Origin: Rhodophyticola sp. CCM32
GTDB taxonomy: Bacteria; Pseudomonadota; Alphaproteobacteria; Rhodobacterales; Rhodobacteraceae
DNA: 64,000 bases
Assembly: GCF_004751985.1 (NCBI RefSeq)
Contig: NZ_CP038492.1
Span: 2,604,001-2,668,000 of the forward strand
Reading direction: 5' to 3'
A program made the translations under genes and the position numbers. Positions 53,678-58,394 of the stretch are shown one piece after another (position 1 is the first letter of the stretch; every line of letters begins with the position of its first letter). The notes under the pieces are model-generated. The model saw only the letters and a list, made by a program, of their open reading frames with translations. It ran no database searches and was not told the origin of the DNA.

Positions 53678-53691
53678 CCGCAGAACACAGC

Positions 53692-53733
53692 GTGGAAAAC
53701 TCCAGTTTTCCACAAGGAATTCTCGAGAATTCC
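53692..53733. repeat. Tandem palindrome element, copy 1
   Basis: GTGGAAAACT-CC-AGTTTTCCAC (53692-53713, 10-base arms) is followed by the perfect 18-bp palindrome GGAATTCTCGAGAATTCC (53716-53733). The same pair recurs 133 bases later. It begins 15 bases after the FadJ-like stop; the 293-base gap has no gene. Confidence 0.85.
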
Positions 53734-53772
53734 GGCCCCGGGGGATGTTATCTGCGTCGGAAACACCCCCTT

Positions 53773-53784
53773 GGCGCATGCGCC
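53773..53784. repeat. Perfect 12-bp palindrome
   Basis: GGCGCATGCGCC sits between the two tandem palindrome elements and looks like a further operator or structural element of this gap. Confidence 0.45.
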
Positions 53785-53826
53785 TTTCGCCAGGCCCCTG
53801 GTTTTATGACCGGTCTGACGCAAAGC

Positions 53827-53866
53827 GGAAAACTCCAGTTTTCCATATGGAATTCTCGAGAATTCC
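53827..53866. repeat. Tandem palindrome element, copy 2
   Basis: GGAAAACT-CC-AGTTTTCC (53827-53844), spacer ATAT instead of ACAA, then GGAATTCTCGAGAATTCC (53849-53866). The palindromes are identical to copy 1 while flanks differ, so the palindromes are the conserved unit. Confidence 0.85.
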
Positions 53867-53869
53867 ATT

Positions 53870-53894
53870 GCCGGGAGCGTTGAAAACTCCCGGC
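53870..53894 (+). terminator. GC-rich hairpin after the tandem palindromes
   Basis: GCCGGGAG and CTCCCGGC form perfect 8-base arms with a 9-base loop, followed by GCTTCACTGGCTTTTTTC. The T-run is 12 bases away, so termination is possible but not certain. Confidence 0.5.
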
Positions 53895-53970: not shown

Positions 53971-55602
53971 ATGGGCTGGATGAAAGACGAAACGGGCCTT
54001 GAAAAACGCCCTGCAAACCATGTGCCGCTGACCCCGCTATCCCATCTTGCGCGCGCTGCCACGGTCTTTCCCACCCGTGAAGCGCTGGTTTATGGCACGA
54101 TCCGCACCAGTTATGCGGACTATCATGGCCGGGTGTCCCGCCTTGCCTCGGCGCTTGCCAAACGTGATGTCGCACCGGGCGATGTGGTGGCCACCCTGCT
54201 GCCCAATATCCCCGCCCATGTGGAGGCGCATTTCGGCGTTCCAGCGGCAGGCGCGGTTCTGAACGCGATCAACATCCGCCTCGACCCGGGCACGATCAGC
54301 TATATCCTCGACCATGGGGAGGCCAGGGTGGTGCTGGCCGATACCCAGTTCCTGACCGTACTGGAGGCCGCCATCGGCGCGATGGAGGGGGAGCCGCCGC
54401 TGATTGTCGAAGTGCCCGATGAACAGGCCGGGTATCCCGCCTCGGGCCGCCATCTGACCTATGACGCGCTCTTGGCCGAGGGGGATGCCGATGCACCCTG
54501 GGTGATGCCCCGGGATGAATGGGAATCCATCGCGCTCAATTATACCTCGGGCACCACAGGGCGGCCCAAGGGCGTGGTGTATCACCATCGCGGCGCCTAT
54601 CTGATCACCCTTGGCACGCCGATTTCCTGGCGGATGACCCTTTACCCCCGCTATCTGACCATCGTGCCGCTGTTTCACTGCAACAACTGGTGCCATGTCT
54701 GGGCCATGCCCGCCCTTGGCGGCACCACGATCTGCTGCCGCGAGATCACCGCCCGCACCATCTATGACGCCATCGCGGATGAGGGTGTGACCCATTTCGG
54801 CGGCGCACCCATTGTGCTCAACATGATCGTCAACGCCGATGATGCGGAGCGGCGCGATTTCTCCCATATGGTGGAGGTTTTCACCGCCGGTGCGCCGCCG
54901 CCCGCCGCCACATTGGCGGCGATCGAGACGATGGGTTTCCATGTCACCCAGGTCTATGGGCTGACCGAGGTCTATGGCCCGGCCACGGAATGCACCTGGC
55001 AGGATGGTCTCTGGGATGATCTGCCGCCAGACGACCGCGCCGCGATCAAGGCCCGTCAGGGCGTCGCCTTCCCCAATATGGACCATGTGACGGTGATGGA
55101 TACCGACAGCATGACCCAGACCCCCATGGATGGCACCGCCCTGGGGGAGATTGTGATGCGCGGCAATGCGGTGATGAAAGGCTATTACAAAAACCCCCGG
55201 GCCACGGCAGAGGCGTTCAGGGGCGGGTATTTCCACACCGGCGACATCGCCATCCAACACCCCGACAGCTATGTGCAGATCGCCGACCGGGCGAAGGATA
55301 TCATCATTTCCGGCGGCGAAAATGTCAGCTCGGTCGAGGTTGAAGGCGCCCTGATGCATCACCCCGCCGTCTCGCTTTGCGCTGTGGTTGCCAAAGCGGA
55401 CGAGAAATGGGGCGAAGTGCCCTATGCCTTTGTCGAGTTGAAAGACGGCGCCAAAGCCACCGAGGCGGAACTGATCGCCTTCCTGCGCCAGCGTCTGGCC
55501 GGGTTCAAGACCCCGAAACATGTGGCTTTTATCGACTTGCCGAAAACCTCCACCGGCAAAATCCAGAAATTCGAGCTGCGGCAAAAGGCCAAAACCCTCT
55601 GA
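53971..55602 (+). CDS. Acyl-CoA ligase (AMP-forming; DmdB-like branch)
   Basis: 543-residue ANL ligase. AMP-binding motif YTSGTTGRPKGVVYHH (about 191-206), the adenine motif GLTEVYGPATECTW, FHTGDIAIQHPDSYVQIADRAKDIIISGGENVSSVEVE in the hinge, and the catalytic Lys in KTSTGKIQKFELRQKAK. This is the medium-chain/methylmercaptopropionate ligase branch (DmdB-like) common in roseobacters, but substrate cannot be fixed. Good AGGAGG before the start. It lies 293 bases after the FadJ-like gene. Confidence 0.93.
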   Translation: MGWMKDETGLEKRPANHVPLTPLSHLARAATVFPTREALVYGTIRTSYADYHGRVSRLASALAKRDVAPGDVVATLLPNIPAHVEAHFGVPAAGAVLNAINIRLDPGTISYILDHGEARVVLADTQFLTVLEAAIGAMEGEPPLIVEVPDEQAGYPASGRHLTYDALLAEGDADAPWVMPRDEWESIALNYTSGTTGRPKGVVYHHRGAYLITLGTPISWRMTLYPRYLTIVPLFHCNNWCHVWAMPALGGTTICCREITARTIYDAIADEGVTHFGGAPIVLNMIVNADDAERRDFSHMVEVFTAGAPPPAATLAAIETMGFHVTQVYGLTEVYGPATECTWQDGLWDDLPPDDRAAIKARQGVAFPNMDHVTVMDTDSMTQTPMDGTALGEIVMRGNAVMKGYYKNPRATAEAFRGGYFHTGDIAIQHPDSYVQIADRAKDIIISGGENVSSVEVEGALMHHPAVSLCAVVAKADEKWGEVPYAFVELKDGAKATEAELIAFLRQRLAGFKTPKHVAFIDLPKTSTGKIQKFELRQKAKTL

Positions 55603-55668
55603 CCCCGCATCTTGACCTGACCTGCGCAGCGCCTATTTTCAAAGGCAGACAGCAAGGAGCTTTGCGCC

Positions 55669-55776
55669 ATGATCATTTCCCACAAAACAGCCGCGCCGCC
55701 TGTCTGTGTTCCTGTGGAAATGATCTCCGATGCCTTGCTCGATCCAGCTTTCAAACCTCTTCTGGTCCACCCCTGA
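55669..55776 (+). CDS. Putative 35-residue leader peptide overlapping the ABC-F start
   Basis: ATG 55669 has an excellent AAGGAG at about nine bases upstream, better than the downstream ABC-F gene has. The 35-codon frame (MIISHKTAAPPVCVPVEMISD...) ends with TGA at 55774-55776, 44 bases inside the ABC-F coding region in another frame. A perfect 10-bp inverted repeat lies within it (55671-55680 with 55716-55725). This is the layout of leader-peptide attenuators of ribosome-protection and Erm genes. Translation is suggested by the ribosome-binding site only; no homologue is known to me. Confidence 0.5.
   Translation: MIISHKTAAPPVCVPVEMISDALLDPAFKPLLVHP
55671..55725 (+). promoter_or_regulatory. 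Hairpin covering the ABC-F ribosome-binding region
   Basis: GATCATTTCC (55671-55680) pairs perfectly with GGAAATGATC (55716-55725); inner CAC..ACAG pairs with CTGT..GTG. The right arm contains the only GGA before the ABC-F ATG (55730), so folding would hide it; a ribosome on the leader ORF would open it. Confidence 0.6.
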
Positions 55777-57319
55777 CGGCCAGCCGCTTTTCACCGATCT
55801 CACATTGCAGTTCGGCCCGGGCCGCACCGGGCTTGTGGGCCGGAATGGCGTTGGCAAAACCACGCTTCTGCGCCTGATCGAAGGGAAACTGACCCCGCAA
55901 TCGGGCCAGATCACCCGGGACGGGCCTATCGCCATTCTCAGGCAGGAGGCGCAGATCCCGCAGGGCCAGACCATTGCCGATCTGTTTCAGGTCACCGACG
56001 GGCTGGCCTGTCTGGCCCGGGCCGGGGCAGGCCGGGCCAGCGCCGATGATCTGGCCACCGCAGACTGGACCCTGCCCGCCCGGATCGAAACCGCGCTTGG
56101 CCGGTTCGGGCTCGACACCGGGCCCGAGACAGCCCTCAGCACCCTTTCGGGCGGGCAGCAGACCCGGGCGCGGCTGGCCGCACTGATCTTTGCGGACCCT
56201 GCCTTCCTGCTGCTGGACGAGCCGACCAACACCCTTGATCAGGACGGGCGCGCGGCCGTGATCGCCCTGTTGCAGGGCTGGCAGGCCGGGGCCATCGTCG
56301 TCAGCCATGACCGCGATCTGCTGGACAATATGGACCGGATCACCGAACTGACCAGCCTTGGCGCAACCAGCTATGGCGGCAATTACAGCGCTTACCAGGC
56401 GCAGAAAGCCCGGGAGCTGACTGCAGCCCGCCAACATCTGGACCGGGCCAGACGCCAGATCGACGAGACCGCCCGCAAACGACAGGTCACGGTGGAACGG
56501 AAAGCCCGCAGGGATCGGGCAGGCCGGGCCAAACGCGCCAAGGGGGATATGCCGAAAATAACCGCCAATAGCGCGCGGGACCGCAGCGAACGCACCACGG
56601 CCAGCCTGTCACGGACGGGGCAGAAGCTGCACAGCGAGGCCGAAACGGCGCTGCGTGACGCCACGGCCCGGGTCGAACGCCTGACAGAACTGACCGTTTC
56701 CCTGCCGGAAACCGGGCTTGCCAATGGTCAGACCGTGCTGCGGGCCGTCGGGCTGACCGGCGGCTTTGACCCCGCCCGCCCGCTGATCCGCGATCTGTCG
56801 CTGCATATCACCGGGCCGGAACGGGTTGCCCTGACCGGGGCGAATGGCGCGGGCAAATCCACCTTGCTCAACCTGCTCACCGGTCGGTTGCAACCAGTCT
56901 CCGGTACGGTCACGATCCTGCCGGATCATGCGATGCTTGATCAGCATGTGGGCCTGCTCGACCCCGCCCTGTCGCTACGCGACAATTTCCATCTGCTGAC
57001 CCCGGATGCCGATGACAAGACCTGCCGCGCGGCGCTGGCACGGTTCGGGTTCCGGGCCGAAAGCGCTCTTTGCCCGACCGCCACGCTCAGCGGCGGGCAG
57101 ATGCTGCGTGCGGGGCTGGCCTGCGTGCTTGGCGCCCCCAGACCACCCCGCCTTCTGATCCTGGATGAACCCACCAATCATCTTGATCTTGAGGCCATCG
57201 CGGCAATGGAGGACGGGCTGACCGCTTATGACGGGGCGCTTCTGGTGGTCAGCCATGATCACCGCTTTCTGCGCCATATCGGGATCACCAGGCACCTCAC
57301 CCTGCCCCGTCAGCTTTGA
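55730..57319 (+). CDS. ABC-F family ATPase
   Basis: 529-residue cytoplasmic ABC-F protein with two ATPase domains and no membrane part: Walker A GRNGVGKTTLLRLIEG (about 37) and GANGAGKSTLLNLLTG (about 368), signatures LSGGQQTRARLAAL and LSGGQMLRAGLACV, and Walker B LLLDEPTNTLD and LILDEPTNHLD. The charged linker (about 240-300) is the ribosome-contacting segment. ABC-F proteins act on stalled ribosomes or confer antibiotic resistance. A leader ORF and hairpin precede it, suggesting induced translation. Confidence 0.93.
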   Translation: MPCSIQLSNLFWSTPDGQPLFTDLTLQFGPGRTGLVGRNGVGKTTLLRLIEGKLTPQSGQITRDGPIAILRQEAQIPQGQTIADLFQVTDGLACLARAGAGRASADDLATADWTLPARIETALGRFGLDTGPETALSTLSGGQQTRARLAALIFADPAFLLLDEPTNTLDQDGRAAVIALLQGWQAGAIVVSHDRDLLDNMDRITELTSLGATSYGGNYSAYQAQKARELTAARQHLDRARRQIDETARKRQVTVERKARRDRAGRAKRAKGDMPKITANSARDRSERTTASLSRTGQKLHSEAETALRDATARVERLTELTVSLPETGLANGQTVLRAVGLTGGFDPARPLIRDLSLHITGPERVALTGANGAGKSTLLNLLTGRLQPVSGTVTILPDHAMLDQHVGLLDPALSLRDNFHLLTPDADDKTCRAALARFGFRAESALCPTATLSGGQMLRAGLACVLGAPRPPRLLILDEPTNHLDLEAIAAMEDGLTAYDGALLVVSHDHRFLRHIGITRHLTLPRQL

Positions 57320-57377
57320 GTTGAGCGGATATGTGCCATCGGCTATCGTGCTGGCAAAACAAGGCAGCACCACAGGC

Positions 57378-58394
57378 ATGACCGCGCTTAGCGAATATCA
57401 GCGGCTTGAGGCAACCGGTCTCTGGCGCGACACCGAAGACAGCCAGCGCCGCGAGGTTCTGGTCTCCCTTGGGGATGCCACGCTGGTCATCTCGACCCTC
57501 AGCGACACCGCGCTGTCCCATTGGTCCCTGCCCGCAGTGCACCGCCTGAACCCGGGCAAGACCCCCGCACTATACGCCCCCGACACCGAGGCCGAAGAAG
57601 TGCTGGAACTGACCGAGCCAGAGATGATCGCCGCCATCGAAAAGGTCCGCAATGTGATCGACCGCGCCCGCCCGCATCCGGGCCGTCTGCGGCTGATCCT
57701 TGGCGGCGCGGCCAGTCTGGCAATTGTGCTGGCCGGTCTCTTCTGGCTGCCGGGCGCCTTGCTGCGCCAGACCGTTTCGGTCCTGCCAGAGGCGAAACGG
57801 ATGGACCTTGGCCGCGACATCCTGTCGGAAATGACCACACTTGCGGGATTGCCCTGCAATGATGCCGCCGGCGTCAGGGCCCTCACCGGACTGGCGCGCG
57901 CCACTCTGGGCGCTGATGCAGCACGGCTTGTGGTTCTGCCCTCCTCGGTGCCCGGCAGCGCCCATCTGCCCGGTGATATCATCGTGCTGAACCGCGCCCT
58001 GGTCGAAGATTACGAGACGCCTGAAGTGCTGGCAGGCTATCTGCTGGCCGAAGATGAACGTCACCGGATGCAGGACCCGGCCGCGCGGCTGCTGCAGGAG
58101 GCGGGGCTGATGGCCACCTTCCGCATGCTGACCACGGGCGAGATCGACATGGGCCATCTGCATGACCACGCGGCCAGATTGCTGACCCGCACCACGATAC
58201 CGGTAAGCGACGAGGCGCTGCTGGCCCGCTTTGCCGAGGCGGAAATCTCGTCAGAACCCTATGCCTTTGCCCTGGATATGTCCGGCGAAACCACCCTGCC
58301 CCTGATCGAGGGCGATCCGATGCGCGCCCGGCTGCGCAGCCCGCTGATGCCCGATGCAAGCTGGGTCGCACTCCAGCAAATCTGCGACGGATAA
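57378..58394 (+). CDS. Membrane protein resembling a degenerate M48 peptidase
   Basis: 338-residue protein with one clear span (about 107-128). The following domain has LPGDIIVLNRALVEDYETPEVLAGYLLAEDERHRMQDP, laid out like the M48 zinc-peptidase segment (substrate strand, helix, then HExxH), but the HExxH position reads EDERH, so the first His and Glu of the zinc site are missing. It may be an inactive relative. ATG 57378 is preferred over the frame running from 57228 inside the ABC-F gene; a 58-base gap follows abcF, so cotranscription is likely. Family assignment is tentative. Confidence 0.7.
   Translation: MTALSEYQRLEATGLWRDTEDSQRREVLVSLGDATLVISTLSDTALSHWSLPAVHRLNPGKTPALYAPDTEAEEVLELTEPEMIAAIEKVRNVIDRARPHPGRLRLILGGAASLAIVLAGLFWLPGALLRQTVSVLPEAKRMDLGRDILSEMTTLAGLPCNDAAGVRALTGLARATLGADAARLVVLPSSVPGSAHLPGDIIVLNRALVEDYETPEVLAGYLLAEDERHRMQDPAARLLQEAGLMATFRMLTTGEIDMGHLHDHAARLLTRTTIPVSDEALLARFAEAEISSEPYAFALDMSGETTLPLIEGDPMRARLRSPLMPDASWVALQQICDG

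Follow-up and report, generated by a model that had tools for sequence, protein, structure and literature searches.

A candidate translational attenuator with a leader frame that overlaps its ABC-F target gene in Alphaproteobacteria

Described leader attenuators and the layout of the locus

In the ErmC and ErmB systems, a leader with its own ribosome-binding site precedes a resistance gene whose start is masked by a hairpin, and the stalling of a ribosome on the leader opens this hairpin; in the case of ermC, alternative hairpins are involved. The leader of cmlA is known to sense chloramphenicol. Among the ABC-F genes, VmlR is reportedly under the control of transcription attenuation. MsrD is preceded by the leader MsrDL, which is described as acting through an intrinsic terminator in the portion of PMC10314930 that deals with it. 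The closest worked case to the locus presented here is toiL-topAI from E. coli, for which it has been proposed that stalling at any codon of the upstream frame, including its start codon in the case of some drugs, unmasks the ribosome-binding site of the target (PMC12121999).

The locus lies in the window, that is, the whole stretch of 64,000 nucleotides from Rhodophyticola sp. CCM32 that was analysed. It shares with the ErmC and ErmB attenuators a leader with its own site and a hairpin at the start of the target, the opening of which by a stalled ribosome would be the corresponding step here; contrary to them, its leader crosses the start of the target and the constraint on the peptide seems weak. 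As in the toiL-topAI system, the upstream frame base-pairs with the target region. There, however, the target is topAI, from a toxin-antitoxin pair, and Rho has a secondary role, as far as the account in PMC12121999 goes, whereas here the target is an ABC-F gene, which the leader overlaps out of frame, with a conserved stop inside it. The proposed kind of regulation, a leader-peptide translational attenuator, is a known one, and what is new is a leader that crosses the start of its target and keeps a stop within it. No description of an ABC-F leader of this kind in Alphaproteobacteria was found in the open-licence PMC literature.

The AAGGAG site, the 35-codon leader, the 10-bp repeat, the weak GGA, and the end of the leader within the ABC-F gene, all listed in the initial annotation, are present in the sequence (Table 1). 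The two arms are complementary at 10 of 10 positions and lie 35 nt apart, while the leader and the ABC-F gene overlap by 47 nt. Since the ABC-F frame contains a TGA at 55721-55723, three codons 5' of its ATG, the gene cannot start between the two; this TGA and the difference in frame also rule out that the leader is an N-terminal part of the ABC-F protein. An Rfam element as the identity of the leader region was dropped, as the positions 55400-55950 gave no match up to E 1.

Table 1. Features of the leader and of the ABC-F start in the window
Feature	Position	Strand	Remark
Sigma-70-like promoter, TTGACC-16-TATTTT	55612..55639	+	1 found versus 0.0 expected in shuffles
Leader Shine-Dalgarno, AAGGAG	55654..55659	+	read in the sequence
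Leader frame, ATG 55669 to TGA 55774-55776, 35 codons, MIISHKTAAPPVCVPVEMISDALLDPAFKPLLVHP	55669..55776	+	out of frame with the ABC-F gene
Hairpin left arm, GATCATTTCC, spans leader codons 1 (from its third base) to 4	55671..55680	+	
Hairpin right arm, GGAAATGATC, contains the weak GGA (55716-55718) ahead of the ABC-F start	55716..55725	+	
Leader stop TGA, formed by the ABC-F codons CCT-GAC (Pro-Asp)	55774..55776	+	
ABC-F ATPase gene, 529 aa, ATG 55730	55730..57319	+	Pfam ABC_tran

The best NCBIfam match of the ABC-F protein is the curated model NF000355 (ribosomal protection-like ABC-F), whose cut-off of 380 bits the protein misses with a score of 339.3. The gene is patchily distributed: within the genus 5 of 7 genomes carry it, within the family 25 of 394, and within the class 14 of 385, while another genus has it in 3 of 11 genomes and the order of genome G755 in 86 of 397; each of these searches used its own E-value limit and included its own or centre genome. 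It is also found on plasmids. Patchy presence is treated as a hint of a resistance ABC-F in the part of PMC6723617 that covers distribution, and the variable presence within genera used there is seen for this gene in both genera (5/7 and 3/11 genomes). The ABC-F is probably a ribosome-protecting protein, and protection of the ribosome would then be the role of the copy in the window.

Two further elements are found in the neighborhood. For the frame that follows the ABC-F gene (57228-58394, of which 57228-58391 was tested), neither Pfam nor NCBIfam gave a match up to E 0.001, and the true start of this frame is probably further in. Upstream, at 53685-53875, the acyl-CoA synthetase gene is preceded by two copies (83%) of a 58-nt element that consists of two palindromes, GGAAAACTCCAGTTTTCC and GGAATTCTCGAGAATTCC.

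The leader frame and its stop in related loci

The comparison comprised 132 alphaproteobacterial loci, obtained from genus, family, class, and order searches and from a motif scan of contigs. The scan, whose motifs are general to ABC-Fs, contributed 4 useful loci (L038-L041) out of 80, and the genus search around G024 covered a single genome. Other ABC proteins from the same genome (L002-L008), a second, broken match within one genome (L037), and distant relatives (L042-L117) were removed before counting, and the plasmid loci L237-L249 were read apart from these counts.

In 131 of the 132 loci, named ones from Rhizobium, Sphingomonas, Henriciella, and Rhodospirillales among them, a leader frame of some kind is present ahead of the ABC-F gene. 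This count takes in three loci with a start-stop frame, L156 (without a clear Shine-Dalgarno), and L130, where a 7-codon frame with a weak GGGA-like site was read by eye 82 nt upstream. At L183 a leader frame was sought and none was found. The loci can be divided into 116 with a long leader overlapping the ABC-F gene, 11 with a short leader holding its own stop, 3 with a start-stop frame, and 2 others, where the short leaders L198, L200, L203, L206, and L207, the start-stop class, and the long leaders L149 (TTG) and L215 (GTG) were assigned by hand; a simpler start rule also yields 116 long loci, but takes in L200 and L203 and misses L149 and L215. In the start-stop loci L160 (G1050), L162 (G1033), and L142, the frame is reduced to ATG TGA or ATG TAA with the Shine-Dalgarno retained, and the downstream leader TGA is lost too, although L142 may alternatively represent a one-base insertion.

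All 116 long leaders cross the ABC-F start out of frame and end inside the gene, usually 44 nt in. A Shine-Dalgarno core of four bases (AGGA, GGAG, or GAGG) precedes 82 of the 114 long leaders starting with ATG, and a core of three bases, which is easily met by chance, precedes 111 of them. The leader starts 52, 55, 58, or 61 nt before the ABC-F start in 115 of 116 cases, and the distance is 1 modulo 3 in the same proportion and in 63 of 64 representatives, with L030, at -56, as the exception.

The initial annotation had already seen that the leader ends within the ABC-F gene, to which the comparison adds that this out-of-frame stop persists across species. TGA is present at the CCT-GAC stop site in 106 of the 116 long-leader loci versus 0 of the 16 others, 4 of which yielded no such site under the rule used, while in L130 this rule picked another place. 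Considering the loci in which the site encodes Pro-Asp, 99 of 105 with a long leader use CCT for the Pro, versus 0 of 10 others (Fisher 1e-10); related loci are not independent, which is corrected in part by the counts for representatives below 75% identity (53/56 versus 0/9). Elsewhere in the 77 sufficiently long ABC-F loci, CCT accounts for 120 of 1688 Pro codons (7.1%). The TGA persists even in L166 and L184, where the residue has changed to Ser, and in L196, where it has changed to Ala, and in L144, L180, and L181, which have lost this TGA, a TAA follows one codon later; the seven remaining long-leader loci without this TGA terminate further downstream. The leader stop looks to be under selection. 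Since it is kept across species and no need of the ABC-F protein for a CCT codon is apparent, this out-of-frame stop is the strongest sign of leader translation, and together with the spacing in multiples of three it argues, at the level of sequence comparison, that the leader is translated.

The peptide itself is a different matter. Across 38 pairs, 17% of the sites in leader codons 2-12 are changed, compared with 55% in the sequence ahead of the leader. The bias towards third codon positions to be expected from the initial annotation was not seen, as changes at positions 1/2/3 numbered 66/83/67 in these 38 pairs, picked by gene identity, and 70/68/75 in 41 pairs picked by leader identity, a choice to which the low rate of leader change in the latter is partly due. 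Read in frame, 52 of 163 codon changes in the 41 pairs were synonymous, and the two other frames gave 41 of 165 and 26 of 157. The lack of a third-position preference points to a weakly constrained peptide, and the leader stretch seems to be held mainly as RNA.

Certain residues are enriched in the leader, with Ala at codon 7 in 31 of 62 cases and Thr at codon 6 in 22 of 62, compared with 7.6% and 6.8%. Among the short leaders, which come from about five lineages, the next-to-last residue is Ala, Thr, or Ser in 11 of 12, a likeness to the cmlA-type leaders, though the Ala and Thr codons may here serve pairing. Chloramphenicol and linezolid are described, in the section of PMC8987054 on this point, as stalling ribosomes best with Ala and less with Ser or Thr. 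The preference for Thr6-Ala7 may reflect arm pairing rather than stalling, since these codons lie within the arms.

Transcription of the leader is expected to start about 23 nt before its ATG, and the leader probably shares one transcript with the ABC-F gene, given that there is one promoter and that the gap from one ATG to the other is 58 nt. Within 75 nt before the leader, 59 of 62 representatives hold a TTG-element and a possible second hexamer, whose end in relatives usually lies 26-37 nt ahead of the leader ATG, and the promoter score is at least 12 in 19 of the 59 scorable representatives, versus 1.4% of shuffles.

The regulation could in principle act on transcription, as in MsrD or VmlR, with a stalled ribosome relieving Rho-dependent or another kind of early termination. 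This is established for ABC-F genes, for example MsrD in the account of PMC10314930, which likewise has a leader peptide ahead of the ABC-F gene and a control by stalling, a step that here would be presumed. However, while MsrDL depends on an intrinsic terminator in the same account, a scan of the window found none between the leader and the ABC-F gene, on which ground intrinsic terminator control was dropped. In addition, the leader pairs with the very region in which the ABC-F gene starts, and this type of attenuation is considered very unlikely for the present locus.

Pairing of the arms and modelled access to the ABC-F start

When the region from -66 to +6 was shuffled with its dinucleotides kept, a perfect inverted repeat of at least 10 bp appeared 2 times in 1000, and an arm-arm energy of -22.2 or lower 6 times in 2000. 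Leader frames and energies were also counted in a 464-kb part of the same genome, made up of the window and stretches amounting to 400 kb, where 302 further genes were called. A frame preceded by a Shine-Dalgarno, open for at least 7 codons and starting 66-46 nt upstream, is found in 5 of these genes, one of which has the frame also crossing the gene start, and none combines such a crossing frame with an energy of -22.2 or lower, a value that by itself is common (15% of the 302 genes). The whole 100-nt fold of the window has a z of -1.3, with 26 of 200 shuffles folding equally well, and for this reason the single sequence alone is unconvincing. The case for the attenuator is built on the comparison between species and not on a single fold.

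In 79 representatives, the best duplex formed by the two arms of each locus has a mean energy of -20.3 kcal/mol, versus -14.6 kcal/mol (sd 0.36) when the arms are permuted; in 10,000 permutations, a value as low as that of the own arms never occurred. The first codons of the leader pair with the ABC-F start region, which in many relatives includes the start codon itself. The initial annotation had proposed to look for paired arms in orthologues, and had named the lack of both frame and pairing as the result that would speak against it; with a frame in nearly all loci and own arms pairing far better than swapped ones, the check did not go against the proposal. A repeat arisen by chance is ruled out by the shuffle and control-gene counts together with the energies of own versus swapped arms.

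A consensus fold is restricted to certain subsets. RNAalifold gave no common structure for 42 diverse sequences, nor any structure for three of the five offset classes, which is attributed to a drift in the register of the arms. In a class of 21 sequences it found 10 pairs, 3 of them with changes on both sides, and in a class of 8 sequences 16 pairs, 1 of them with changes on both sides.

The effect of a ribosome on this pairing was modelled for 62 loci by placing it at eight leader codons between 1 and 10. In the free RNA, the ABC-F start region has a modelled accessibility of 0.33, which increases to 0.48-0.53 with the ribosome in place, and the increase exceeds 0.05 in 46-57 of the 62 loci. 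When the left arm is taken from another species, the modelled accessibility is 0.41 (297 chimeras). For the window itself, the predicted values are 0.25 in the free state, about 0.5 for codons 1-8, and 0.32 at codon 10.

Some relatives appear to be under a different control. In plasmid pSymA of S. meliloti 2011 (L237) and in L183, the leader is absent from its usual place and palindromes with AACAGCACG arms were seen by eye, although 101 nt upstream L237 does have a frame of 15 codons, which is weakly preceded. A similar palindrome, also read by eye, is found in Azospirillum oryzae (L246), whose plasmid copy was searched for a leader and showed none, and where a divergent gene of the TetR family lies 121 nt from the annotated ABC-F start. 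Six named plasmid copies were inspected, and that of Rhizobium rhizogenes K84 was ambiguous. The copies from Paracoccus alcaliphilus (DSM 8512) and Neorhizobium galegae have an ATG leader, and a leader is seemingly present, as judged by eye, in those from P. aminophilus and Novosphingobium resinovorum (TTG start).

These palindromes, together with the perfect 10-bp repeat of the window, could be seen as favoring an inverted repeat that serves as a DNA operator for a transcription factor, the leader frame being incidental. Nevertheless, the palindromes of the three relatives are compact, contrary to the window arms with their wide spacing, the arm sequences vary between species while their pairing is retained, and a kept leader stop requires translation. 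The operator reading was dropped on the basis of the retained pairing and the kept stop, and its probability is regarded as minimal.

More distant relatives show other small frames. On plasmids, L238 (Cupriavidus), L239 (Azotobacter), and L240 (E. coli IncN) have a 3-codon MR(H/L/N) frame followed by a stop, with a common GAGGTATTC-like site and, by eye, a short hairpin after the frame, while L241 has an MNK frame and L242 an MNKHD frame. Similarly, L043, L044, and L047 (Streptomyces, Saccharopolyspora) have GTGGTGCTCGC upstream in common and a possible leader starting with MVLA, which in L043 is in frame with the ABC-F gene.

Proposed mechanism of regulation

The reading considered likely is that of a translational attenuator similar to ermC or toiL, with an overlapping leader, which would open upon arrest of a ribosome on the first leader codons. 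The initial annotation had proposed a translational attenuator, a proposal strengthened by the leader found in 131 of 132 loci and by the pairing of own arms. The promoter would give rise to an mRNA whose first frame is the leader. As long as the first leader codons are free of ribosomes, they would pair ahead of the ABC-F start and mask its weak ribosome-binding site. Freely translating ribosomes would soon clear the left arm, cross the ABC-F start out of frame, and terminate within the gene after about 44 nt, and this out-of-frame traffic would further hamper initiation. Upon arrest on the first eight or so codons, caused by an antibiotic or another fault of translation, the held ribosome would cover the left arm and free the right one, and would also end the traffic over the ABC-F start, so that the ABC-F protein could be made and act on the blocked ribosomes. 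Within this mechanism, the leader frame, its kept stop, the arm pairing, and the promoter are supported by the comparison of sequences, whereas occlusion by leader traffic, stalling as the trigger, a drug as the inducer, and the protection of ribosomes by this ABC-F protein are steps that we infer.

A simpler arrangement would be plain translational coupling, where translation of the leader always melts the hairpin and feeds the ABC-F start, giving a steady level without any sensing. The passage of ribosomes through the leader necessarily unwinds the stem, and the seemingly weak constraint on the peptide would also agree with coupling. However, leader ribosomes would in 116 of 132 loci run over the ABC-F start out of frame and terminate downstream of it, an arrangement ill suited to reinitiation, and the palindromes that replace the leader in three relatives, in one of them beside a TetR gene, suggest induced rather than steady control. 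Coupling is thus thought unlikely, although less so than the transcriptional alternatives.

Beyond the attenuator at this locus, a broader proposal can be put forward tentatively. Here, the loci would represent a widespread class of alphaproteobacterial attenuators in which the target is repressed by leader ribosomes that run out of frame over its start to a selected stop within the gene, so that an arrest at early codons would open the hairpin and at the same time relieve the start of this traffic. With a left arm that sets in at the start codon of the leader, such a class might sense many inhibitors, including drugs that act at the start codon, with a preference for stalls of the phenicol or oxazolidinone type at Ala or Thr, and in one genus the leader would have been cut down to a start-stop frame (L160, L162).

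If the attenuator reading is true, the overlapping leader would constitute a conserved, probably drug-sensing switch for a putative family of ribosome-protection proteins in Alphaproteobacteria. For ABC-F proteins whose function is unknown, its layout would also offer a route to the inducer and thereby perhaps to the range of drugs concerned.
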